IMG/VR virus record: IMGVR_UViG_3300024302_000034
Coordinates: 1-32,286 of that record
Length of the DNA: 32,286 nt
Reading direction: 5' to 3' (one strand)
Origin: a virus
Shown here: positions 6,139 to 32,286 of the stretch, piece by piece
Layout of the letters: every line of letters starts with the position of its first letter
Numbering within the stretch: the first letter of the stretch is position 1
Notes under the pieces: generated by a model
The model's database searches: none
Told to the model about the DNA's origin: nothing
The model's input: the letters and a program-made list of their open reading frames with translations, nothing else
Position numbers and translations under genes: made by a program

Positions 6139-6782
6139 ATGGAGTTATTATAACTACACATAATCGGTGGGTAGATTGTTTTGCTTGTCTTAATACTGTA
6201 ATCAAGCACACTCCTGATTCCTACATTATTCTTTTTGATAATGAATCAGACGAAAGTAAACAAGAAGAAGTTAAAAAACTATTTCCTACGGTTAAGTATG
6301 TAAGAATTGATAATCAGACAGAAAATGGAGGACTAACAGGTACTTGGAATCAAGGTATTTCCTTGTGTCTATCCTCTGGTTGTGATTCTATTGTAGTTCT
6401 CAACCATGATACTTTAGTCGATTCTTCTTGGGGAGACTTCTTTAAAGCGATTAAAGAATACCCTTTGTCTGTGTTTGGACCAGTATCTAATAAACCAGGG
6501 GTGCTAGGGTACGCTCATCCTTTGCAGTTTACAAATAAGAAGAAAAAGTATACAGTCGAAAAAGCAGATACTTGTATTAACGGTTTTTGCATTGGTTTTT
6601 CTGCAGAAACTATAAAAAAAGTAAAGAAAGAAACGGGAATGTATTTTAATATTTCTTTTCCTTTTTCGAATAACGAATTAGAGTTTTGTAAACGATTCCT
6701 CTCTTTAAAAGGAAGTTTATACGTGGTGACATCTTGTTTTGTTCACCATACTAAGTATAGTGATTGGAGAAAATTAAAATGA
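6135..6782 (+). CDS. Glycosyltransferase family 2-like
   Basis: This 215-aa protein shows a GT2 core: GVIITTHNR at the N-terminus, ILFDNESDE near residue 32, NGGLTGTWNQGI near 64-75 (the usual N-G-G...N-x-G pattern) and IVVLNHDT at 86-93 as the DXD-equivalent metal site. It would transfer a sugar from an NDP donor. It is ATGA-coupled to the genes on both sides. Acceptor and sugar are not visible from sequence. Confidence 0.75.
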   Translation: MNGVIITTHNRWVDCFACLNTVIKHTPDSYIILFDNESDESKQEEVKKLFPTVKYVRIDNQTENGGLTGTWNQGISLCLSSGCDSIVVLNHDTLVDSSWGDFFKAIKEYPLSVFGPVSNKPGVLGYAHPLQFTNKKKKYTVEKADTCINGFCIGFSAETIKKVKKETGMYFNISFPFSNNELEFCKRFLSLKGSLYVVTSCFVHHTKYSDWRKLK

Positions 6783-9776: not shown

Positions 9777-12059
9777 GTGGTAAACAATCATAAAATACAT
9801 GGCGATAACCGTTTCAAAAGAAACTTAAATAGCGTACCTTCTCTTGCTTCCGATTATGTGGATAGCATGACTCAAAATGACTTGAGCATGTTTCATTTAG
9901 ATAATCCAGATATAGAACTATTTAATCTTATTGATGGGGAACTTATAAAACTTGCTGGTTCTGAGATTTTAATTTATAGGTATGAAGGGTCCAAAATAGT
10001 AGATGATATTTATGATGAAGATAGACAAAAAATTATAAACCCTGTTCCTATAAAACTTTATGGTCATTACGATCCTCGCTCAGTAGAAGAAACTTTATCT
10101 GAATTTGGTTTAGAGATCGAAAACGACCAAATATTTACGTTCAACCTTTCTGAAATAGAAAAAAAGGTTGGACGTAAACTTATTCCTGGGGACATTATTA
10201 AGCCTTTATTTCAGGATTTGTTTTATGAAGTTTTTGAAGCGCAGGAAGCAAGCTTTGAAGTTTATGGAGTATACCATCTTAATGTAACAACTAAGTTGTT
10301 AAGGGATAGTGATGACAGAATCCCTATGTTGGTAGATTCCACCCCAGAAGCTGTTACGGGGGAACCTGAAACTTATAAGTTGTCTAATGATACTTATGAA
10401 TGGGTTTTCTCAAAAAGATTCCCAACTACTATTGAAACCTTTGGACCTTATCTTCAATTTGATTATATAAAAAATAAAGAAACAGGACATACAATTGATA
10501 TGTCACACTCTGCTCTTTGGCAATTAGATATGCGCCTTGCCCCTACCAATTATGAAGATGTTTCTAATTATTGTATCCCTTCCTCTTATTACTCGAAGGA
10601 AGGTGGCCCTGGAAGACCTGCAGGGGTTTTTAAGGCTTATGATAAGAGAGACTACGTTTCTATTGATTCTACTAGTCTTCAAAATGGAAAATTAAAACTA
10701 AAATGGGAGAATTTTAGTTTTAATTCTGTGAGATCTACTAACCAATCATTTGCTGACGCTTCTGGTGGTAGCTACTCTGTTGAGATGACAGTACAAGTGA
10801 ATGAAAATGATTTAGATTTAAGTTTAAAAGTGGATATAGGGCTCGATTCCTTGGGTCAAGAATCTACAACTTCGTTAGCTTCTATTAGATTCCCTTACTT
10901 GAATATTGAGCCTTTAGGGGAAGACTCTAAAGTTTATGCTACAATAGATGGAGGGGAAGTTTTATTAGATCCTGTAGGTAATGGTATTTACATGCAGGAT
11001 TCGGATGATCAATCCCAAGGTGCAGGTATGGCTACCTCTACTTACCCTGCAGAAGTTTCTGTTCCCTTACACGCTTTCTTTGATGGAAAAGAAAAATATG
11101 GTATTATGCTTTATGATCACGACCCTGAACTAGCCATTAAAGGAGTTTATGGTTCGTCTTTTTATCAGTCAGACGCTTTTGTAATGTACCAAAGACATTG
11201 GCCTAACCTTAAGGAAGAGGATATTAAAGAACATTTTAGAAGAACTGAGGTTTACACAAGGTCTTGGAATACCTCTTCTAACCTTGCTACTGATGGAGAA
11301 GGAAACCCGCACGGGTATGTTCATAAAATTAGAATGTTTGAAGGTATCCAAACAGAAGCAATCAATATATTTTTTGATAAATATAATCCCACCCTTCCCT
11401 CTGTTTATGATAATCCTAATATACCTTCCCTTTTAAAGAATACGGCAATAATTGTTTGGCCAGCGGATAACCCCGAAAATAACTTTGCAGAAAATGCATT
11501 AGTTCCTAATGATACAGATTCTTTATGGTTAACTTTTAAAAAATCCTCTGACTTCTACAGAGAAAATATACCTGAAAGTACTATGATGGTGCAACCTTTA
11601 ACATGGGTAACTAATCCTTGGGAAACTCCCAATGTTAATGCTAATCCTCCTGACCTTTTCTTTGGGCATGATGGTACCATAACAGGTTCTGAGAACAGAA
11701 GTTTAATAGATAGAATTCGTCCTGGCCTTATAAATTTTCTAAAAGAAGCACATACGGAATTTTCTCCTTTATGGGTTACAGGCAACAAAGATACGGGTAG
11801 ACATCAAGGTTTTAGTATCGTGGAACACCCTTTAGCGGAAGGAGTACTTCCAGACCCTTTGAAAAGGCTCCTGGTTCTGACGAATGGCCTTCAAGAAATT
11901 TGCAAAAGTATTTTCTTGAGGAGGGCATGTATAATCTTAAAGGAAACCCTAATTCTAGAAAAGAAAGAAAAGAAGAGCAGGACGAACAATATAAATCATG
12001 CTGTTCTAGTGAAAAGTGGAGAGATGAGACATATAGGGACCAGTCGAAAGCTATTATAG
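9777..12059 (+). CDS. gp14-like neck domain fused to glycosidase-like domain (first frame)
   Basis: This 760-aa frame starts at GTG with no clear SD. Residues about 75-185 follow the T4 gp14 neck pattern: DDIYDEDRQK, LSEFGLEIENDQIF, PGDIIKPLFQDLFYEVFEAQ, FEVYGVYHLNVTTKLL. Residues about 190-700 are beta-rich and include IRFPYLNIEPLG and VPLHAFFDGKEKYGIMLYDHD, resembling the N-terminal part of DUF6259-type glycoside hydrolases (a memory-based resemblance). The last about 65 residues change composition (LRRACIILKETLILEKK), as if read in the wrong frame. An in-phase heptamer CCCTTTG (11855-11861) would shift -1 into the next frame. The real product is probably one about 1,430-aa virion protein. 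Confidence 0.65.
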   Translation: MVNNHKIHGDNRFKRNLNSVPSLASDYVDSMTQNDLSMFHLDNPDIELFNLIDGELIKLAGSEILIYRYEGSKIVDDIYDEDRQKIINPVPIKLYGHYDPRSVEETLSEFGLEIENDQIFTFNLSEIEKKVGRKLIPGDIIKPLFQDLFYEVFEAQEASFEVYGVYHLNVTTKLLRDSDDRIPMLVDSTPEAVTGEPETYKLSNDTYEWVFSKRFPTTIETFGPYLQFDYIKNKETGHTIDMSHSALWQLDMRLAPTNYEDVSNYCIPSSYYSKEGGPGRPAGVFKAYDKRDYVSIDSTSLQNGKLKLKWENFSFNSVRSTNQSFADASGGSYSVEMTVQVNENDLDLSLKVDIGLDSLGQESTTSLASIRFPYLNIEPLGEDSKVYATIDGGEVLLDPVGNGIYMQDSDDQSQGAGMATSTYPAEVSVPLHAFFDGKEKYGIMLYDHDPELAIKGVYGSSFYQSDAFVMYQRHWPNLKEEDIKEHFRRTEVYTRSWNTSSNLATDGEGNPHGYVHKIRMFEGIQTEAINIFFDKYNPTLPSVYDNPNIPSLLKNTAIIVWPADNPENNFAENALVPNDTDSLWLTFKKSSDFYRENIPESTMMVQPLTWVTNPWETPNVNANPPDLFFGHDGTITGSENRSLIDRIRPGLINFLKEAHTEFSPLWVTGNKDTGRHQGFSIVEHPLAEGVLPDPLKRLLVLTNGLQEICKSIFLRRACIILKETLILEKKEKKSRTNNINHAVLVKSGEMRHIGTSRKLL
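10690..10725 (+). repeat. Intragenic perfect 15-bp hairpin
   Basis: Arms 10690-10704 and 10711-10725 are perfectly complementary (AATTAAAACTAAAAT on the left), with loop GGGAGA. It lies inside the neck/glycosidase coding frame, and no T run follows. Confidence 0.9.
11855..11861 (+). promoter_or_regulatory. Candidate -1 slippery heptamer C CCT TTG
   Basis: The heptamer fits X XXY YYZ and is in phase with the upstream frame (CCT codon at 11856). A -1 slip gives P-L-E-K-A-P-G-S-D-E-W, entering the frame that stays open to 14080. That frame is blocked upstream by TAG at 11813, so the shift must fall between 11816 and 12056. A 5-bp AAGGC/GCCTT stem just downstream is the only possible stimulator seen, and its spacing is short. 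A sequencing or natural indel is the main alternative. Confidence 0.4.
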
Positions 12060-14080
12060 ATGTTTTTGAAGGTACTCTTAATACTATAAAGCTTACAGGA
12101 AATTCGGGTTCTGCTGGTTTTTGTTATACCCCTATAATGAAAGGTTCCTTAAAAGGGGTTCCAAGTGTAAGTATTTCTGTTACTGATTCTTTTAGTATTC
12201 CTACCACAGCTAGTTTTACTATTCAAGGTACGGAATTGAAAGTAGGTGTTGATTGGTCTTCAGGAGGGACTGAGCTAGAAGTGTTAGAAAGTATTAAGGA
12301 AGCGTTATCCTCAATAAATATATTTTCGTATATAAGACATATAAAGTTAGGATTGCATTGGCTTGTTATTGATTTTGATACTTATGGGGATAATATTATT
12401 TTAAACGTAGATGATTCTACAGAAAAAGGAATTTTTCTTCAGTATGATAAGGCTATTTTACAACCAACACTAACTCCTTATTATTCTTTTGAAGTAGAAG
12501 ACGAGACTATCTTACGTTTTAACCATGATTGGGACATTCACGCTCCTTTAGGCTACTTAAAAATACATGGTGTTGAATCACGATTCGCTGATGGTTGGGA
12601 ATCAATGTCTTTTGGTTATAGTTTAAACGGCCCTGATGATACTCCTTACACTCAAATTAACACTTGGGGTACTACCCCAAGTGTTAATGCTAGAAATATG
12701 GCGGATGCTATAAATGCTTCCCCCATAACTAAAGAGGCTATACAAGCGGAGGCTGATGGCCCTAACCTAATCTTAAGGTCTGCTTTTGAAGAAAGAGGTT
12801 CAAAAACAAGAGTAACAATAGAGCCTTTTGAAAATAAAGTGTACCTTTATAAAGCAGAAGCCTTAGCTGAGATAGGTCCTATAGACATACATACAGAACA
12901 CCCTGTAGGTTCTAATGCTATGTACGAAAAAGATAGGAGGGATGCAGTTGATACTGTAAACGAGTATGGTTCATCTATAGCTTTAAATAATCAATATATT
13001 TCGGGAAATGAAAGACATAACAGAAGTACTTCCCTAAATTCTATGGGTGAAGCAGAACACCATATTATATACCCCCATTCTATGTTTACTGCTGGGTATC
13101 GTACAATGAAGGATAAAGTTCTATTATCTAACAATGTTATAGGAAATTCAACGAGAGGAACTTTGTTACAAAAGTCTTTTATAAATGGATCTCCTCGTGG
13201 CCATAAGACTATGCTCCTTTGGCTAACAGAAGGAAGACTTAATTCCCTTCTTGAGTATGGTGTTGATCCTAAAGACCTAACTGACCCAGAAAAAGCAGAG
13301 GCTATACAAAATCTTCTTACTAAATTAGGGTTAAATGATGAGCAGTTAAAAGCAATTGCAGTTTATCACCAAACATATGCCCTTTTATACTATCTCCTAT
13401 ACGAGCAAGCACCTCCTAATGTTGTTCACTGCTCTGAGCAACCTACTAATTACCCTAAAGGATGGCATGGGGGTAAAGTTAGCTTAAGTGTTGAATTTGA
13501 CGGGTACCCTTCTCATCCTGCTTTAGATGCTTCTGCAATCTCGCAGCAAGAGTTTGCGAAGGAACTTGCTGAGATTTATAGTTCATTTAAAGAGTATTTT
13601 CAAAAAGGAAGAATTATCTCTGGGACTCCTTTAGATGGTTTTTATACTTCAAAACCTGATTCCTCCCTTTGGTTTTTAGGTCAAAATAACTCTTATTCTT
13701 TTATTGTTAAGAATGTAAAACAACATAAAATGGCAAATACTATTGCTACTTTTAATAAACAGCCTGATGGTACGGGGCTATTCTTAATAGGTAACTATAC
13801 TTTGCACTCAGAAGGAGAAGGGCTGATTACTTTAGACTTTAAAGAATTTTTCGGAGTAGAAGATGCGAATAATATAGGGTATCAGTTACGAGAAGTAGAT
13901 AAAAATGGTAATGATTTACAAACAATACCTCTTCCTTTTACTACTACAAAACATCAGTTAAATTTCAATACGAGTCCTCTGACGGTTCGTATTTTCATAG
14001 TAGAGCCTTCCCAAATCAGAGATGGCTGGAGTTATAACGGGGTAGGTTCTGGGTACTGGGTGGCTCCCGAAGAAGTCTAG
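11900..14080 (+). CDS. Virion glycosidase-like protein, second frame of split gene
   Basis: This frame is open from 11816; the first available start is TTG 11900, with no convincing RBS. The first about 50 residues are charged (RKERKEEQDEQYK). Residues about 60-330 are beta-rich, like tail or receptor-binding proteins. The C-terminal part (KELAEIYSSFKEYFQKGRIISG, then GTGLFLIGNYTLHSEGEGLITLDF) resembles the C-terminal accessory sandwich of a glycoside hydrolase whose N-terminal half is in the preceding frame. This supports a single product made through a -1 shift at 11855-11861. Independent translation from an internal start cannot be excluded. Confidence 0.6.
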   Translation: MQKYFLEEGMYNLKGNPNSRKERKEEQDEQYKSCCSSEKWRDETYRDQSKAIIDVFEGTLNTIKLTGNSGSAGFCYTPIMKGSLKGVPSVSISVTDSFSIPTTASFTIQGTELKVGVDWSSGGTELEVLESIKEALSSINIFSYIRHIKLGLHWLVIDFDTYGDNIILNVDDSTEKGIFLQYDKAILQPTLTPYYSFEVEDETILRFNHDWDIHAPLGYLKIHGVESRFADGWESMSFGYSLNGPDDTPYTQINTWGTTPSVNARNMADAINASPITKEAIQAEADGPNLILRSAFEERGSKTRVTIEPFENKVYLYKAEALAEIGPIDIHTEHPVGSNAMYEKDRRDAVDTVNEYGSSIALNNQYISGNERHNRSTSLNSMGEAEHHIIYPHSMFTAGYRTMKDKVLLSNNVIGNSTRGTLLQKSFINGSPRGHKTMLLWLTEGRLNSLLEYGVDPKDLTDPEKAEAIQNLLTKLGLNDEQLKAIAVYHQTYALLYYLLYEQAPPNVVHCSEQPTNYPKGWHGGKVSLSVEFDGYPSHPALDASAISQQEFAKELAEIYSSFKEYFQKGRIISGTPLDGFYTSKPDSSLWFLGQNNSYSFIVKNVKQHKMANTIATFNKQPDGTGLFLIGNYTLHSEGEGLITLDFKEFFGVEDANNIGYQLREVDKNGNDLQTIPLPFTTTKHQLNFNTSPLTVRIFIVEPSQIRDGWSYNGVGSGYWVAPEEV
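12656..12688 (+). repeat. Intragenic perfect 15-bp hairpin
   Basis: ATTAACACTTGGGGT (12656-12670) pairs perfectly with 12674-12688 around loop ACT. It is inside the coding frame, where it reads as ordinary protein (INTWGTTPSVN). There is no terminator T tract. Confidence 0.95.
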
Positions 14081-14122: not shown

Positions 14123-15121
14123 ATGATAAGAGACGGTTTGAGTTTTGATGATGTGCTATTGGTCCCACGGTACAGCACGGTCAAGAGCCGAAGCAAGGTA
14201 AGCATTGAACCTTCCTACAGGAGGGACAGTATGCTTACCAACCCTTATAAAGCCCCTTTCATTGCTGCTCCTATGGACACTATCTCAAGTGTAGCTATGG
14301 CGGATGCAATGTATACAATGGGTGGTTTTTGTGTTACTCATAGGTTTAATAGTGTAAAAGAACAAATAGCTATACTACAAAAAATTAAACATAGAGAAGC
14401 ACGATGGGCGGCTATCGGTTTAAAGGACGGTGTTGAAAGAATAACAAGTATTTTAAATGAAGTTGATATTCACGGGGTATGTTTAGATGTGGCTCACGGA
14501 CATCATGAAGATGTTATTAGGTTTACTTCTGAACTAAAGAAACTTTTATCTAGTAAAAGGCACCATCTTATGGTTGGCAATGTTGCTACCAAAAAAGGTT
14601 TTGCTGACCTGCAAAGTGCAGGTGCTGACTCTATTCGGGTTGGTATTGGTTCTGGTTCTATCTGTAGCACTCGCTTAATGACAGGTTTCGGCGTTCCTCA
14701 ATTAAGTGCAGTGATGGATTGCGCAAAGGTGAAGCATAGTGCGTTGCTTATTGCTGATGGAGGTATTAAAAAACCTGCGGATGTAGTTAAAGCTTTAGCG
14801 GCAGGTGCGGATTTTGTTATGGCAGGGGGTATCTTTGCAGGTACAGAAGAATGCCCGATAAAAGGTGTTTACAGGGGTATGGCATCAAAGGATGCTATGT
14901 CCCAACTGGGTAGAAAAGTAGCCCCTGAAGGAGTTACTTTTGAGGTACCCGAAAGAGGCTCCGTAAAAGATGTACTTTTTGATTACATTGGCGGATTAAA
15001 AAGTGCGTTATCCTACGCAGGAGCAAACAATATTTCAGAGTTTCAAAGATACTCTAAATTTATAAGAACCACAAATAGTGGTATTTTAGAAAGCCAAACA
15101 ACCAATTTTAATATAATATAA
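14123..15121 (+). CDS. GMP reductase / IMP dehydrogenase family enzyme
   Basis: This 332-aa TIM-barrel enzyme begins [14 protein letters not shown], has AAPMDTISS (substrate and cofactor region), [19 protein letters not shown] containing the catalytic-loop cysteine, and [27 protein letters not shown] for the phosphate-binding loop. CBS domains of full-length IMPDH are absent, so size suits GuaC (about 347 aa), while the N-terminus looks IMPDH-like. It would adjust guanine/adenine nucleotide balance during infection. There is no SD, only the TATAATA box. Which of the two reactions it catalyses is not decidable here. Confidence 0.8.
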
Positions 15122-17422: not shown

Positions 17423-18148
17423 ATGAAAGGTGTTATTTTAGCAGGGGGGTTAGGTTCACGCCTAGCTCCCCTTACTTTTGTCACAAACAAACATTTACTA
17501 CCTGTTTATGATAAACCGATGATATATTACCCATTGGAAACAATGCGTAAAGCAGGTATCACAGATGTTATGGTTGTGATTGGAGGTCCTCATGCAGGGC
17601 ATTTTATCCCTCTTCTTAAGAATGGAGAGGATTTTGGTATGAGTATTAGATACTCATACCAAGAGGAAGAAGGGGGTATTGCAGAAGCTTTATCTTTAAC
17701 GGAAGGTTTCGCTGACGGGGAGAGTATCTTCGTTGTTCTTGGAGATAACATAACTGAAAGAAATTTTATGCAAGACGTTATAACTATGGACCATAGTTCT
17801 CTTGCAGGTAATGCTTGTATTTTCTTAAAAGAGACAAAGATGCCTGAGAATTTTGGAGTTGTGGAATGGGATTCAGGCAAATTGGTTAGTATTATAGAAA
17901 AGCCTAAAAACCCACCTTCCAACCAAGCAGTTTTAGGTATGTACTTTTTTCCATATGACGTGTATACCTACATTAAAAAACTCTCCTACTCTGAAAGAGG
18001 AGAGTTAGAAGTGACAGATTTAAATAACATTTACATTAAAAAAGGTAAAATGATTGCTATAACACACCCTGAGTATTGGTCTGATTGTGGTAGTTTTGAT
18101 ACTATGCTTTCTACCTCTTTATACATGAAACAATTAAATGAAAAGTAA
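17423..18148 (+). CDS. rfbA: Glucose-1-phosphate thymidylyltransferase (RmlA/RfbA)
   Basis: The 241-aa nucleotidyltransferase has the signature GGLGSRLAPLT (residues 8-18), NKHLLPVYDKPMIYYPLE, a GDN metal site (VVLGDNITE) and EKPKNP with YWSDCGSFDT near the end. It makes dTDP-glucose from dTTP and glucose-1-phosphate, the first step of dTDP-deoxysugar synthesis. Length is near that of shorter phage/archaeal RmlA enzymes (E. coli about 290). A TATAATA box precedes the start and RmlB follows with an 11-base overlap. It contains two perfect hairpins (17634-17662 and 17979-18006). Confidence 0.9.
   Translation: MKGVILAGGLGSRLAPLTFVTNKHLLPVYDKPMIYYPLETMRKAGITDVMVVIGGPHAGHFIPLLKNGEDFGMSIRYSYQEEEGGIAEALSLTEGFADGESIFVVLGDNITERNFMQDVITMDHSSLAGNACIFLKETKMPENFGVVEWDSGKLVSIIEKPKNPPSNQAVLGMYFFPYDVYTYIKKLSYSERGELEVTDLNNIYIKKGKMIAITHPEYWSDCGSFDTMLSTSLYMKQLNEK
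17634..17662 (+). repeat. Intragenic perfect 13-bp hairpin
   Basis: TTGGTATGAGTAT (17634-17646) pairs perfectly with 17650-17662 around loop TAG, inside rfbA, where it codes FGMSIRYSYQ. A second 9-bp stem lies 330 nt downstream at 17979-17987/17998-18006. Confidence 0.95.
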
Positions 18149-19163
18149 AACACCAACGATTGTAATTACTGGAGCAGCTGGTTTTATTGGTTTAGAGCTT
18201 ACTAAACAAGTGCTAAGAACAACAGACTACAATATCCTAGCTATTGATGCTTTTACAGAAGTAGCTAATGAAAAGGAATTGTATCTCTTATCTAACCAAA
18301 ACCATGAAAGGTTAACAGTAGCCCACCAAAGGATAGAGGATCTTAGTAGCTTCTGGAGAAATATGATGGATAAGTTAAGTATAGACTATGTTTTTAACCT
18401 AGCCGCAGAAACTCACGTGGATAACTCAAACGAGGACGGGTCTTCCTTTATGTCTTCAAACATAATAGGAACATTTACTCTTATAGAGTACTTCCGAAAT
18501 CGTGTTAAGCCAATTAAGTGTTTCTTTCAGATCTCTACGGATGAGGTATATGGTTCTTGTGTAAATCAGTACTGTAAAAATGAAGTAGGAAGGACAGTGA
18601 AATTTAAAGAAGGAGATAAACTAAACCCTACGTCCTACTACGCTTCTTCTAAGGCTTCTGCAGAGCATATCGTACAATCAGCAGGGAAAGTATACAACTT
18701 CCCTTATATCATCACTAGATGCTGCAACAACTTCGGTAGTACCCAGAATAAAGAGAAGCTTATCCCAAAGATAATGTATAACTTGGTTAAGGGTATCCCT
18801 TTTCCTTTGTATAGTGATGGGAAACAATTAAGACAATGGGTATCTGTACAGAGGCATTGTGCTTGTCTTCTTGCTCTTATGGATGAATCACAGAAAAGTG
18901 ATAAAGTAATAGATAGAATCTATAACATTGGTGGTTATGTTTTTTCAAACAAGGAAATAATAAAGATGCTTGCCACTAATTTAAATATAGCCTACGAAAA
19001 TATCGAATTTGAGGTAGTTCCTGATCGCTTAGCTCATGACCAAGCCTATCACGTAGATTCTTCTGTATTGGATTCCATTATCGGAGGATATAGTAGGTCT
19101 ACTTTTGATAACGATTTCGTTACTATGTTTAAAGAATTTAAAGAACTATATAAAGGTAAATAA
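18138..19163 (+). CDS. rfbB: dTDP-glucose 4,6-dehydratase (RmlB/RfbB)
   Basis: This 341-aa extended SDR has TGAAGFIGLE at the N-terminus (NAD binding), NLAAETHVDNS, ISTDEVYGS, and NPTSYYASSKASAE with the catalytic Tyr-xxx-Lys. It then has CCNNFGSTQNKEKLIPK and GKQLRQWVSVQRHC, all classic RmlB segments; the usual VxDH is changed to VQRH. It converts dTDP-glucose to the 4-keto-6-deoxy sugar. It directly follows RmlA and ends in TAATG with the next gene. Downstream enzymes of the pathway lie 9-10 kb upstream at 8412 and 9022. Confidence 0.9.
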   Translation: MKSKTPTIVITGAAGFIGLELTKQVLRTTDYNILAIDAFTEVANEKELYLLSNQNHERLTVAHQRIEDLSSFWRNMMDKLSIDYVFNLAAETHVDNSNEDGSSFMSSNIIGTFTLIEYFRNRVKPIKCFFQISTDEVYGSCVNQYCKNEVGRTVKFKEGDKLNPTSYYASSKASAEHIVQSAGKVYNFPYIITRCCNNFGSTQNKEKLIPKIMYNLVKGIPFPLYSDGKQLRQWVSVQRHCACLLALMDESQKSDKVIDRIYNIGGYVFSNKEIIKMLATNLNIAYENIEFEVVPDRLAHDQAYHVDSSVLDSIIGGYSRSTFDNDFVTMFKEFKELYKGK

Positions 19164-19864
19164 TGACTGATTCCAACGTAAATGTTTCTGGTTCCGACCA
19201 AGTATACTCCATTGATGCTTATGAAATGGGAACTGGTGGAGATTTTAGACAAGTAATTGTGCTAGGAGATTTTAATACTTCTGGGGATTCTGGTTGTGTT
19301 TCTGTTACAGGGAATGCTTTAAATGTTTCTTCTATAGGAACTTCTGAGACAGCCTTGACAAATATCCAAAATGAGGTCGAAAACACAAATAATAACACCG
19401 CAAATGTTCTTACTTATGAACGAAATGTTCATGCAAGTAATCCTCAAGGATTAATTGTTCAAACTGGAAGTGGTGGTTTAGAAACGAATATTATTCCAGG
19501 AACCGAATATTTATCTACTGTTTATTTAGACTATGATGCTGCAGGAGATAATCCTACAACAAATACAGAAGTTATTGCTGCTCCAGGAATAGGTTATAAA
19601 ATTGTTCTATATGGTTTACAATTAATTGTGCAAGCAAACGGGGCTACAGATTCAGGAACATGGGGATTAACAGATGGTAATTATGCTTTAAGTACTGTTA
19701 AATTTGCAGGTCTTATTTTAGGAAAAGTATCTGCTCCTTATTCTATGAATTTTGCTTTTGGGGTAGACTTAACAGAAAATACAGCCTTAAAGATTTCTTC
19801 TGTAGAAGTAACTGGGGATATTTTTCTCGCTGGTGTTGTTTTTTATAGAATAGAGGCTGCTTAA
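19163..19864 (+). CDS. Virion-associated beta-rich protein (decoration or fibre-like)
   Basis: The 233-aa sequence is rich in Gly, Ser, Thr, Asn and Val, with no lysine-rich regions. It has a helical linker near residues 72-95 (TALTNIQNEVENTNNNTANVL) between two beta-rich parts. The C-terminal part (GYKIVLYGLQLIVQA ... IFLAGVVFYRIEAA) looks like a jelly-roll sandwich. This composition is usual for phage head-decoration or fibre proteins. It is TAATG-coupled to RmlB, so the glycan genes and this protein are co-expressed; it might be a glycosylation target (inference). Confidence 0.5.
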   Translation: MTDSNVNVSGSDQVYSIDAYEMGTGGDFRQVIVLGDFNTSGDSGCVSVTGNALNVSSIGTSETALTNIQNEVENTNNNTANVLTYERNVHASNPQGLIVQTGSGGLETNIIPGTEYLSTVYLDYDAAGDNPTTNTEVIAAPGIGYKIVLYGLQLIVQANGATDSGTWGLTDGNYALSTVKFAGLILGKVSAPYSMNFAFGVDLTENTALKISSVEVTGDIFLAGVVFYRIEAA

Positions 19865-19897
19865 AATATTCTATAAATTTTTGTAACATTTCTTACA

Positions 19898-20033
19898 TTT
19901 ACCACCTATTAGTCGTCGCAAAACTCTCCAACCCAGATACGGGACTTCCCGTATCTGGGTATTCTTCTAAGTGTGATACCATTTGCTTTGCTGCTGGTCA
20001 TAGGTTATAACCTTATGACCTTTAAGAAGACGA
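19898..20033 (+). ncRNA. Structured RNA element, copy A
   Basis: This non-coding stretch aligns over its whole length with 30158-30296. Shared blocks are TTTACCACCTATTAGTCGT, AAAACTCTCCAAC and, 3' of the hairpin, TTCTAAGTGTGATACC with ATTTGC. The central hairpin is 13 bp (19931-19943/19948-19960) with loop ACTT. Ends may close as TCGTC (19912-19916) with GACGA (20029-20033). A second hairpin, GGTCATA-GGTT/AACC-TATGACC with one bulge, spans 19996-20020. No known RNA class is recognised. It lies between a virion gene and tRNA-Ile. Confidence 0.6.
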
Positions 20034-20042
20034 ACAAAATAA

Positions 20043-20068
20043 TTAAAACAAATAATTATTTGTTTTAA
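20043..20068 (+). repeat. 26-nt perfect palindrome before tRNA-Ile
   Basis: TTAAAACAAATAA followed by its exact reverse complement. Its place 2 nt before tRNA-Ile and 9 nt after RNA element A suggests a processing or termination hairpin separating the two. Confidence 0.7.
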
Positions 20069-20070
20069 AA

Positions 20071-20148
20071 AGGAATGTAGCATAATCTGGTTAATGCTCT
20101 GGTCTTATATGCCAATGATTTTGGGTTCAAATCCCAACATTCCTACCA
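20071..20148 (+). tRNA. tRNA-Ile (anticodon TAT)
   Basis: Acceptor AGGAATG/CATTCCT, D stem GCAT/ATGC, anticodon loop CTTATAT with TAT at 20106-20108, T arm TTGGG-TTCAAAT-CCCAA, discriminator A and encoded CCA. The first pair of the anticodon stem (C-A) is mismatched. TAT would read ATA codons. Confidence 0.8.
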
Positions 20149-20153
20149 ATTTT

Positions 20154-20210
20154 TTAGATAGGTAAATTCGTGAGAATTACTGCTGTGATTAGACCCACTA
20201 TCTAATTTTT
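20154..20210 (+). ncRNA. Small hairpin RNA / terminator-like structure
   Basis: TTAGATAG (20154-20161) pairs with CTATCTAA (20198-20205) followed by TTTTT. Inside, GTAAATTC-GTGA-GAATTAC makes a second hairpin with one bulge. It follows tRNA-Ile and could be its terminator or a separate small RNA. Confidence 0.4.
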
Positions 20211-20229
20211 CTCCTATATTGTTTTTGAG

Positions 20230-20291
20230 TTTATCTCGTAGGGAGGTAGATAAATTCTTTTTTGTTAATTGTTTTGGCAAAAACCTCCCTA
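20230..20291 (+). ncRNA. Predicted H-type pseudoknot upstream of tRNA-Leu
   Basis: TTTATCT (20230-20236) pairs with AGATAAA (20248-20254). The loop segment TAGGGAGGT (20239-20247) is exactly complementary to ACCTCCCTA (20283-20291), giving two interlocked helices of 7 and 9 bp with a 2-nt first loop and 28-nt last loop. No reading frame of note covers it. The role is unknown. Confidence 0.4.
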
Positions 20292-20316
20292 TCCTAGGAT
20301 ACAAAATAAAATAAAT

Positions 20317-20417: not shown

Positions 20418-20606
20418 ATGAAATTGACTCGACAACACTTTAAGTTAATTGCAGATACGCTTGCACATTCGATTGTAACTTTAAATTTATTAGATAACGA
20501 AAAAAAAGAGTTAATAAATATCTTTATTCAAAGTCTAAAGACTACTAATACTAATTTTTCTAGTACTCGTTTTTCTGATTACATCGAAAAAACCCTTAAC
20601 CCTTAA
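20418..20606 (+). CDS. Hypothetical 62-aa protein
   Basis: A small helical protein (MKLTRQHFKLIADTLAH...), starting 25 nt after tRNA-Leu. Its last codons and stop lie inside the AACCCTT tandem repeat, so repeat-number change would alter the C-terminus. There is no SD; an AAAATCAAA stretch precedes the ATG. The function is unknown. Confidence 0.55.
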   Translation: MKLTRQHFKLIADTLAHSIVTLNLLDNEKKELINIFIQSLKTTNTNFSSTRFSDYIEKTLNP

Positions 20607-20618
20607 CCCTTAACCCTT
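20591..20618 (+). repeat. Heptamer tandem repeat (AACCCTT)x4
   Basis: Four exact copies of AACCCTT span the stop codon of the upstream gene and end 7 nt before the next ATG. CCCTT could pair with AAGGG-type ribosome-binding sequences, so a regulatory role is conceivable. Confidence 0.9.
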
Positions 20619-21705: not shown

Positions 21706-21779
21706 GCACCTATAGCATAACTGGATAATGCCTCCGACTTCTAATCGGAAGATTTTAGGTTCGAATCCTAATAGGTGTG
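21706..21779 (+). tRNA. tRNA-Arg (anticodon TCT)
   Basis: Acceptor GCACCTA/TAGGTGT, D stem GCAT/ATGC, anticodon stem TCCGA/TCGGA with loop CTTCTAA (TCT at 21740-21742), T arm TTAGG-TTCGAAT-CCTAA, discriminator G. CCA is not encoded, unlike the other three tRNAs. It reads AGA codons. Confidence 0.9.
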
Positions 21780-22069: not shown

Positions 22070-22274
22070 TATGTTAATTGGTTCTATTACTTTAAACCTC
22101 ATACTTTTTTCTTATATGATGTTTCGTCTCCTTCGAGAATGGAAATGGGAACATCATATAAGAAAACAAATGCTCTTACAAAAAAGAAAGAAAAAGGAAC
22201 AGTTTCAAAATGAAACTGTTCCTGACGCTTATTTCAACGATTATCACCAAACAAAAGAGGATAACTTATGCTAG
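22062..22274 (+). CDS. Small membrane-anchored 70-aa protein
   Basis: One hydrophobic segment (about residues 4-21, MLIGSITLNLILFSYMMF) is followed by a strongly basic stretch (RKQMLLQKRKKKEQ) and a polar tail, consistent with an inner-membrane protein with cytoplasmic C-terminus. A 13-bp perfect hairpin (22195-22223) lies inside the frame. The function is unknown. Confidence 0.6.
   Translation: MNNMLIGSITLNLILFSYMMFRLLREWKWEHHIRKQMLLQKRKKKEQFQNETVPDAYFNDYHQTKEDNLC
22195..22223 (+). repeat. Intragenic perfect 13-bp hairpin
   Basis: AGGAACAGTTTCA (22195-22207) pairs perfectly with 22211-22223 around loop AAA, inside the small membrane protein gene. Confidence 0.95.
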
Positions 22275-24520: not shown

Positions 24521-25566
24521 TGATTGATAAGAAAACAAAGGTGAAAAATTCACCTCATTTTTCTGCTTGGGCAAACGTTACTTATATTAATAGTAAAAAC
24601 ATTTACGACCTCTTTCAGTTGTTAAAGAAATATTCTTTTATCGTCTCTGACGGCAAAACAAAAGTAGAATTTCTTCGTGAATCAAAAATTCACGAAGAAA
24701 ATTTCTCTTTTAGTGCAAAGGATATAGTCTATGTTAACACTAAATCTCTATTTGAAGGACATATTGATGCAGTTATTGGAGAGATAATTTTTAGTATTAT
24801 CTCTAATGATTCGTTTCAACAAGCAAACTATGCTACGATTATTCAAGAAAAAATCGACAAATGTACTATTTCTGTCTTTGAGGCAGAAACAGCAAAAAAG
24901 ATGGAAACCATCAGTCTATCATCTTTTTTGGATAATTACTTTATTGTTGATTCATCATCTATTAATTGTTTTACACGGGATTGGTGGAGTAAACCTATAA
25001 AAACAGGTTCTTTCACTATTATTCATAATAAAGAGCAAATTCTCGCTTTAAATTCAAATAATAAGGATGAAGTATTTACAAAATTAAAGGAAGCCTTGAC
25101 TAGTTCATCTGCGTTACACACAGATTTAAAGAAAATATCTCAGATACTATCTTGTTTGTGTTTCTTTCACAAGTATGATAGTTTATCTTCACATATCGTG
25201 AAATATTGCGAGTCCTTCATCAAGGAGAAAATTCTTGATGATTCTTTTGGTCCACTTTTTACAAACTTTGCTATGTTTTATCTGTTTTCCGATTCACCTG
25301 AAAATGAATTTGTAAGCAAATTCATTAATGATACTCAAATAGTAGACATGAGTAAAGAATCACTTCATTCTTTAACCCAGAAAACAATCTTATTTTTTGA
25401 GGATGTTCTTGAGAACCATCTACAATCTATCTTTGATAATGTTCCTGCTGGTAATCTAACGAAAGTAAAAAATAAGAAAGAATTTATCAGTTCGTTAGCA
25501 GGTATTTCTATTATAAACACCTCTCTATTGCCCAAAAAATATAACCTTAGATCCTTTTTAATATAA
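24520..25566 (+). CDS. Unknown 348-aa protein between AAA+ and VWA genes
   Basis: No family is recognised. The sequence is mixed alpha/beta in the first half and mostly helical in the second, and it is coupled on both sides by TAATG overlaps. The strict position between ATPase and VWA genes suggests a third component or adaptor of that system. It contains perfect hairpins at 24670-24700 (13 bp), 24780-24804 (9 bp) and 25303-25326 (10 bp), more than any other gene here. Confidence 0.6.
   Translation: MIDKKTKVKNSPHFSAWANVTYINSKNIYDLFQLLKKYSFIVSDGKTKVEFLRESKIHEENFSFSAKDIVYVNTKSLFEGHIDAVIGEIIFSIISNDSFQQANYATIIQEKIDKCTISVFEAETAKKMETISLSSFLDNYFIVDSSSINCFTRDWWSKPIKTGSFTIIHNKEQILALNSNNKDEVFTKLKEALTSSSALHTDLKKISQILSCLCFFHKYDSLSSHIVKYCESFIKEKILDDSFGPLFTNFAMFYLFSDSPENEFVSKFINDTQIVDMSKESLHSLTQKTILFFEDVLENHLQSIFDNVPAGNLTKVKNKKEFISSLAGISIINTSLLPKKYNLRSFLI
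24670..24700 (+). repeat. Intragenic perfect 13-bp hairpin
   Basis: TTTCTTCGTGAAT (24670-24682) pairs perfectly with 24688-24700 around loop CAAAA, inside the 348-aa gene. Confidence 0.95.
25303..25326 (+). repeat. Intragenic perfect 10-bp hairpin
   Basis: AATGAATTTG (25303-25312) pairs with 25317-25326 around loop TAAG, inside the same 348-aa gene. Confidence 0.9.
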
Positions 25567-30108: not shown

Positions 30109-30149
30109 AATAATTTAGGATAACTTAAAAGTTATCCTAAATTATTTTT
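30109..30149 (+). terminator. Strong terminator, 18-bp perfect stem
   Basis: 30109-30126 pairs perfectly with 30129-30146 (left arm starts AATAATTTAGGATAACTT) and the 3' side ends in a T run. It stands 9 nt before structured RNA copy B, isolating it from upstream transcription. Confidence 0.85.
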
Positions 30150-30157
30150 AAGTTGAA

Positions 30158-30296
30158 ATTTACCACCTATTAGTCGTTGAGAAAACTCTCCAACTGAGAT
30201 ACAAGAATCCTTGTATCTCAAGAATATTCTAAGTGTGATACCATTTGCCTTGTTGCTGGGAATAGGTTATAAGATATTAAGGCAAAACGACGAGTA
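30158..30296 (+). ncRNA. Structured RNA element, copy B
   Basis: It aligns with copy A (19898-20033) through TTTACCACCTATTAGTCGT, AAAACTCTCCAAC, TTCTAAGTGTGATACC and ATAGGTTATAA. Its central hairpin (30195-30205/30210-30220, loop AATC) is perfect at 11 bp, but several pairs differ from copy A on both strands. Outer closure GTCGTT (30173-30178) with AACGAC (30287-30292) is also perfect. TTTGCCTT/AAGGCAAA (30244-30251/30279-30286) adds a further helix. It sits between a terminator and the 143-aa gene, so it may be a free RNA or a 5' leader. Confidence 0.6.
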
Positions 30297-30358
30297 TAAA
30301 ATTTTTTTATGCTTTGGTTTACTTTTTGCTTAAAACATTTATTTTGGAGAAAATAAAA

Positions 30359-30790
30359 ATGGCAACGAAGAAACTCTCAATTAATGAACTTCTAGCAAAA
30401 CTAGAAGTAAAAAAAGGGAAATCACAAAATACTTCTGTTAATAAAGCAGAAGTGGAAGCCCGAAGAATTTTTAAAGAAAAGATTAAGGTAATGGAAGAAA
30501 TTCCCGAAGCCGCACAATATTTTTCATTGCTCAAGACATTGAACGAGCAAAAGACAAAGTTGAAAAACTTTTCTAATAAGAACAATCCTTCGTATATCCC
30601 AACGAAAGTTAAGCAGTACGAAGATAAAATCCAAGAACTCACAGAATTGTGGGCGAACAAAGAAAAATTGGAAAAAAGTCTAAATGATTCGATTTCTACA
30701 CTTAAGGATAAAATTGTAGAATTGCATGACCACGCCGTTGACACTATGAATAGCAAGGAAAAAGAAAATAGAAAGGAGAAAGAAGCCTAA
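30359..30790 (+). CDS. Coiled-coil 143-aa protein
   Basis: ATG 30359 lies 8 nt after GGAGA, deciding the start. The product is highly charged and helical, with long heptad-like stretches from about residue 30 to 135 (QEL/KLEKSL/LKDKIVEL) and Lys/Glu-rich ends. It is followed by a strong terminator and preceded by structured RNA B, so it forms its own transcription unit. Strong coiled coils suggest a structural or scaffolding role; no family is recognised. Confidence 0.65.
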   Translation: MATKKLSINELLAKLEVKKGKSQNTSVNKAEVEARRIFKEKIKVMEEIPEAAQYFSLLKTLNEQKTKLKNFSNKNNPSYIPTKVKQYEDKIQELTELWANKEKLEKSLNDSISTLKDKIVELHDHAVDTMNSKEKENRKEKEA

Positions 30791-30804: not shown

Positions 30805-30839
30805 AACACTAAGGATTAAAATCCTTAGTGTTTTTTTTT
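30805..30839 (+). terminator. Rho-independent terminator, 13-bp stem
   Basis: AACACTAAGGATT (30805-30817) pairs with 30820-30832, followed by at least seven more T. It ends the coiled-coil protein unit. Confidence 0.9.
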
Positions 30840-32059: not shown

Positions 32060-32286
32060 TTGTAGTAGTGTAGATTATTACAATACATATTGTTTTGTAG
32101 TGTAGATTATTACAATACATATTGTTTTGTAGTGTTTTAGGTTATTACAATACATATTGTTTTGTAGTGTTTTAGGTTATTACAATACATATTGTTTTGT
32201 AGTGTTTTAGGTTATTACAATACATATTGTTTTGTAGTGTTTTAGGTTATTACAATACATATTGTTTTGTAGTGTTTTAGGTGTTT
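32060..32286 (+). repeat. Tandem palindrome-bearing repeat array (35-bp period)
   Basis: Six copies of ACAATACATATTGT start at 32080, 32112, 32147, 32182, 32217 and 32252. The first interval is 32 bp and the rest 35 bp. Each 35-bp unit reads GTAGTGTTTTAGGTTATTAC, then AATACATATTGTTTT, with no spacer. The first two units have a variant left part (GTAGTGTAGATTATT). The palindrome is ACAATA-CA-TATTGT. The array continues past the window end. This looks like iterons, an operator cluster or a partition site rather than a CRISPR. Confidence 0.85.

Follow-up and report, generated by a model that had tools for sequence, protein, structure and literature searches.

The window analyzed here is a virus record taken as a whole (32,286 bases), which carries genes for a UvsX-like recombinase, a gp32-like protein and a DnaB-like helicase along with sugar-nucleotide and glycosyltransferase genes and four tRNA genes. 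To judge from this gene content, the record probably represents part of a T4-related phage. It also contains a phage gene encoding an IMP dehydrogenase/GMP reductase-like protein (14123-15121). The only relatives returned by a protein search with UvsX were a near-identical 5.8-kb fragment and one distant sequence; the fragment, contig L005, is 99.96% identical to the record where the two overlap, in its first 4.7 kb, and holds no information on the element described below.

Two related non-coding, intergenic stretches of approximately 140 nt each are present on the + strand. Copy A (19897-20036) is located between the gene at 19163-19864 and that of tRNA-Ile(TAT) (20071-20148, +), the first tRNA gene after it, from which it is separated by an AT-only perfect palindrome with no T run after it (20043-20068, +). 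The G+C content drops from about 0.35 to 0.30 where copy A lies. Copy B (30158-30299) comes just after a terminator-like hairpin (30109-30146, +) consisting of a 17-bp AT-rich stem and a short T run, and it precedes a gene (30359-30790, +) carrying the Shine-Dalgarno (SD) sequence TTTTGGAGA, which is followed in turn by a terminator (30805-30832). The 143-aa product of this gene belongs to no family, and a protein search with it gave no relatives. Each copy lies 35-60 nt upstream of a gene having the same orientation. The original prediction had placed the copies at 19.9 kb and 30.2 kb, the one before tRNA-Ile and the other between a perfect terminator and a gene with an SD sequence, and all these features were found again.

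Using an HMM made from both copies, nhmmer aligned 19897-20044 with 30158-30303, that is over about 146 nt with a single 1-nt gap, and the pair also emerged as a repeat family (D2) with 80% identity over 91 nt. A model-based search of the 32,286-base window gave exactly two strong matches, scoring 173 and 169 bits, and thus revealed no further copy. The similarity is unevenly distributed: four conserved blocks show identities of 21/22, 13/14, 27/29, and 12/14, as compared with 16/27 for the central hairpin and only 13/31 for the 3' tail. The invariant sequences, all on the + strand, are TTTACCACCTATTAGTCGT in block 1 (A, 19898-19916; B, 30159-30177), AAAACTCTCCAAC in block 2 (19920-19932; 30182-30194), TTCTAAGTGTGATACCATTTGC in block 3 (19965-19986; 30227-30248), and ATAGGTTATAA in block 4 (20000-20010; 30262-30272). 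Since the blocks are more highly conserved than the hairpin and the tail, they are under sequence constraint, and they constitute the best evidence that the element has a function. Their near-identity was borne out as first described; their unpaired state is an assumption. The alignment, which was said to run from end to end, holds good up to about 20010/30272, beyond which the similarity is poor, the last third aligns badly and the 3' hairpins differ.

The central hairpin, P2, is perfectly paired in both copies, with 13 bp and the loop ACTT in A (19931-19960, +) and 11 bp and the loop AATC in B (30195-30220, +). As previously claimed, the pairing has been kept despite changes on both arms: all 11 shared pairs are maintained, and four of them differ between the copies on both sides, without any break or G-U pair. 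If four random substitutions had hit the second arm, the chance of all the pairs being restored would be about 4e-5, and when the arms were slid against each other, the complementarity was lost.

These double changes have to be set against the abundance of hairpins in this genome. Scanning for perfect Watson-Crick stems with loops of 3-8 nt, we found 10 hairpins with stems of at least 11 bp in the window versus about 0.15 expected from Markov-shuffled sequence, which amounts to an approximately 60-fold over-representation; among nine further phage loci, which together comprise about 90 kb, none was found even with stems of at least 10 bp. Five of the 10 are inside reading frames (10690-10725, 12656-12688, 17634-17662, 22195-22223, and 24670-24700; 13-15 bp, with 15 bp at 12656-12688 and 13 bp at 17634-17662). 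Perfect stems exceed expectation (8 seen, 0.13 expected) to a much greater extent than those containing one G-U pair, and no stem having a single G-U and no mismatch was observed. In quasi-palindrome correction, a process familiar from mutagenesis in T4 and bacteria, one arm is copied onto the other. Template-switch repair of near-palindromes of this kind could also generate the covariation in P2 without any selection on an RNA. The covariation is ambiguous because arm-copying mutation would produce paired double changes by itself, and since perfect hairpins occur genome-wide, inside genes too, the pairing of P2 need not reflect RNA selection. This process does not explain the invariant blocks. 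Of the initial conclusion that compensatory change denotes a selected RNA, what stands is that the element is duplicated, under selection, non-coding and outside any Rfam class, whereas the inference from covariation is unsafe in this genome. More generally, when a genome is enriched for perfect hairpins, covariation seen in a single hairpin between two sequences does not prove that an RNA has been selected. The excess of hairpins, a large part of which is in coding sequence, may be worth studying in its own right.

The other pairings proposed agree less well between the copies. The putative closing stem P1, which is weak, pairs 19913-19917 (TCGTC) with 20029-20033 (GACGA) in A and 30173-30178 with 30286-30291 in B (+), where it can be drawn as GTCGTT/AACGAC or as TCGTT/GACGA with one G-U. 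The pairing can be formed in both copies, as was claimed, but it is much weaker than stated: on the 5' side the copies differ by one substitution, and on the 3' side the pairing segment is shifted by 2 nt, which is not independent compensation. The 3' structures are not the same and involve different stems: A has a hairpin at 19996-20020 (+; GGTCATAGG...CTTATGACC), while in B the pairing of 30244-30252 with 30278-30286 (+; TTTGCCTTG/TAAGGCAAA) is favoured instead. A possible pseudoknot between block 4 (20000-20010) and the ACCTAT of block 1 (19904-19909, +) is based on a 6-bp complement, ACCTAT/ATAGGT, which is identical in the two copies and could easily be due to chance; as it does not covary, we do not count it as evidence.

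With the gathering thresholds of Rfam 15, only the four tRNAs scored in the window, and relaxed scans of A and B gave only chance-level matches. Nor did either copy match a known class of self-cleaving ribozyme, as far as these classes are represented by curated Rfam models. The original statement that the element fits no recognized class (ribozyme, riboswitch, tmRNA, RNase P, or CRISPR-associated RNA) is thus upheld, no Rfam family having been found to fit. Scans of IMG/VR for exact patterns, from which near relatives may escape, gave no matches for AAAACTCTCCAAC..TCTAAGTGTGATACC, CTCTCCAAC..TAAGTGTGATAC, CCTATTAGTCG..CTCTCCAA, or CTAAGTGTGATACCATTT. The single match to ACCACCTATTAGTCGT was rejected, as it was accompanied by no other block; the seven matches to GTGTGATACC..ATAGGTTATAA all represent a single upstream region, unrelated to the element, in a different group of phages, and the ten isolated matches to TCTAAGTGTGATACCAT in a genome scan were attributed to chance. 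Blastn searches yielded nothing for A and B in phages and nothing for B in plasmids. When about 1,560 GTDB genomes from four phyla were searched with model R1, the only match (38.8 bits) fell within the reading frame of a glycosyltransferase and was taken to be spurious. The many homologues with significant covariation that had been anticipated were therefore not forthcoming: the IMG/VR patterns, the GTDB genomes and the phage and plasmid records gave none, and hence none in which the central hairpin is lacking. Since these searches gave no believable homologue, the A/B pair is an orphan, and our verdict is that the element is real, selected, and orphan.

As to what this element might be, a small structured RNA ranks as the most likely, followed by a regulatory cassette, a cis-acting leader and some other DNA site. 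We put at even chances the reading that A and B are diverged copies of one structured non-coding RNA of about 140 nt from a T4-related phage lineage. It accords with a hairpin that has stayed paired despite drift, the conserved blocks, the co-directional intergenic copies, the folding z-scores (-5.1 and -3.2 for the two copies), and the position of A directly before tRNA genes and that of B, which precedes a gene and is flanked on either side by a terminator-like hairpin. Against it, there are only two sequences from one genome with no homologue, P1 and the 3' hairpin agree poorly between the copies, and a discrete transcript is not framed by any clear promoter-terminator pair. We also propose, tentatively and at somewhat below even chances, that this is a new, duplicated family of small structured phage RNA with invariant loops binding a host or phage partner during infection. 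On the broader reading of a structured non-coding RNA, copy A would be transcribed along with the tRNA region and copy B as part of a unit with a terminator at each end; P2 would serve as a structural strut, P1 and the pseudoknot between blocks 1 and 4 may close the fold, and the invariant blocks, taken as single-stranded, would form a working surface which binds a protein or base-pairs with RNA. Such base pairing might, for instance, join CUCUCCAA of block 2 to ribosome-binding sites of the sequence TTGGAGA, one of which belongs to the gene downstream of copy B: the UCUCCAA of block 2 is complementary to such sites at 6764 and 30344, with which it could pair. In tRNA-Arg (21768-21777), a stretch of 10 nt complementary to block 1 was discarded, as it reflects a likeness to the acceptor strand of tRNA-Arg itself; by our estimate, about 0.6 such matches would be expected by chance in the window.

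The main alternative to the structured RNA, though rather unlikely, involves promoter early stem-loops (PeSLs), which in T4-like phages are dispersed intergenic hairpins joined to a promoter-like sequence at module borders. Each copy would be a DNA regulatory cassette of this kind, in which a hairpin is combined with a promoter that restarts transcription past the preceding module and drives tRNA-Ile (A) or the gene at 30359 (B); a regulator would be bound by the invariant blocks further upstream, and the hairpin would be a terminator or an operator. A sigma70-like promoter candidate, identified by consensus match only, is present on the + strand at 19983-20011 in A (TTGCTT-17-TATAAC) and at 30245-30273 in B (TTGCCT-17-TATAAG), and the pattern TTGC(C/T)T-17-TATAA(C/G) occurs at only two places in the window, namely in the two copies, with identical spacing. 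Strong conservation stops at TATAA, B is probably served by a start downstream of the terminator at 30109-30146, a second terminator-like hairpin closes the gene that follows B, and A lies at the fall in G+C content. Titles cited in PMC4503421 present PeSLs as motifs of T4-like phages in which promoter and terminator are combined. The dispersed intergenic copies and the hairpin joined to promoter-like sequence resemble a PeSL, as far as this can be defined from titles. The element here differs in being longer and in having long invariant blocks upstream of the hairpin, and what it offers by way of a PeSL is a candidate promoter, a weak pattern conserved in both of two copies only. In addition, the -35 match is poor and of a kind common by chance, at least 60 invariant bases further upstream are left unexplained, P2 is without a T run, and the GACGA of P1 recurs past the promoter.

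Two observations on signals elsewhere in the window can be mentioned here. At four gene starts (4049, 4445, 14111, and 17411), CTATAATA is followed by four bases and then ATG; it may be a late-type promoter, from which mRNAs with hardly any leader would be made. At 2513-2553, a strong hairpin resembling a terminator, complete with a run of nine T, abuts tRNA-Gly, with no space for a promoter between them.

It is distinctly unlikely that the copies are instead cis-acting leaders, similar to a riboswitch or an attenuator, controlling the tRNAs after A and the gene at 30359 after B: their distance from a co-oriented gene would suit this role, as would the complementarity between the UCUCCAA of B and the SD of its own downstream gene, but these downstream genes are unrelated (a tRNA versus a 143-aa protein), no common expression platform follows the element, and in the case of a tRNA gene there is no SD that could be masked. 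The least probable reading is a DNA site conserved for its sequence, involved for example in replication, recombination or packaging, its pairing resulting from quasi-palindrome correction, which the excess of perfect hairpins, half of them in coding sequence, and the dominance of Watson-Crick stems would favour, but hairpin correction alone does not account for the conserved blocks, and nothing found here speaks positively for an origin, packaging or recombination role.

The small structured RNA also has potential counterparts among known phage RNAs. The tRNA region of T4 produces two stable RNAs, RNA C (species 1 RNA, rnaC; 139 nt) and RNA D (species 2 RNA, rnaD; 119 nt), the roles of which are unknown (PMC3014915). 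These are small non-coding RNAs of a tRNA region, and copy A lies just upstream of tRNA genes; furthermore, in seven RNA D sequences of T4-type phages, a variable, largely paired centre with double changes is enclosed by invariant flanks, which is the same layout as that of A and B. On the other hand, RNA C ends in a T-arm-like stem-loop absent from A and B, and copy B is not near tRNAs. Neither T4 RNA has significant sequence similarity to the element (p 0.81 and 0.87 in local alignments with RNA D), the covariance model of the seven RNA D sequences (R2) matched neither copy even when E values as high as 10 were allowed, and that of five RNA C sequences (R3) matched neither copy as a whole, its best + strand hit (5.3 bits, E 8.5, 30174-30237) being at chance level. 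The element may thus work like RNA C and RNA D, but it has no sequence kinship with them, and these models do not identify it as either. As a comparable element, present twice in an unrelated phage, it provides a second place to ask what such RNAs do. GOLLD and ROOL are structured phage RNAs which are often encoded near tRNA islands (PMC12286853). Membership was rejected, there being no Rfam match and the element measuring about 140 nt, whereas GOLLD members often exceed 800 nt.

Some other features of the window were also recorded. The spacer between tRNA-Ile and tRNA-Leu (20149-20316) gives a better fold than do most shuffled versions (z -2.4), with competing AGGGAGGT/ACCTCCCT and TTTATCT/AGATAAA pairings. 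Four exact copies of the heptamer AACCCTT, which has a telomere-like look, are present between two small genes (20591-20618), and a 35-bp tandem repeat in 6.5 copies (32060-32282) occupies the very end of the contig, beside the assembly break.
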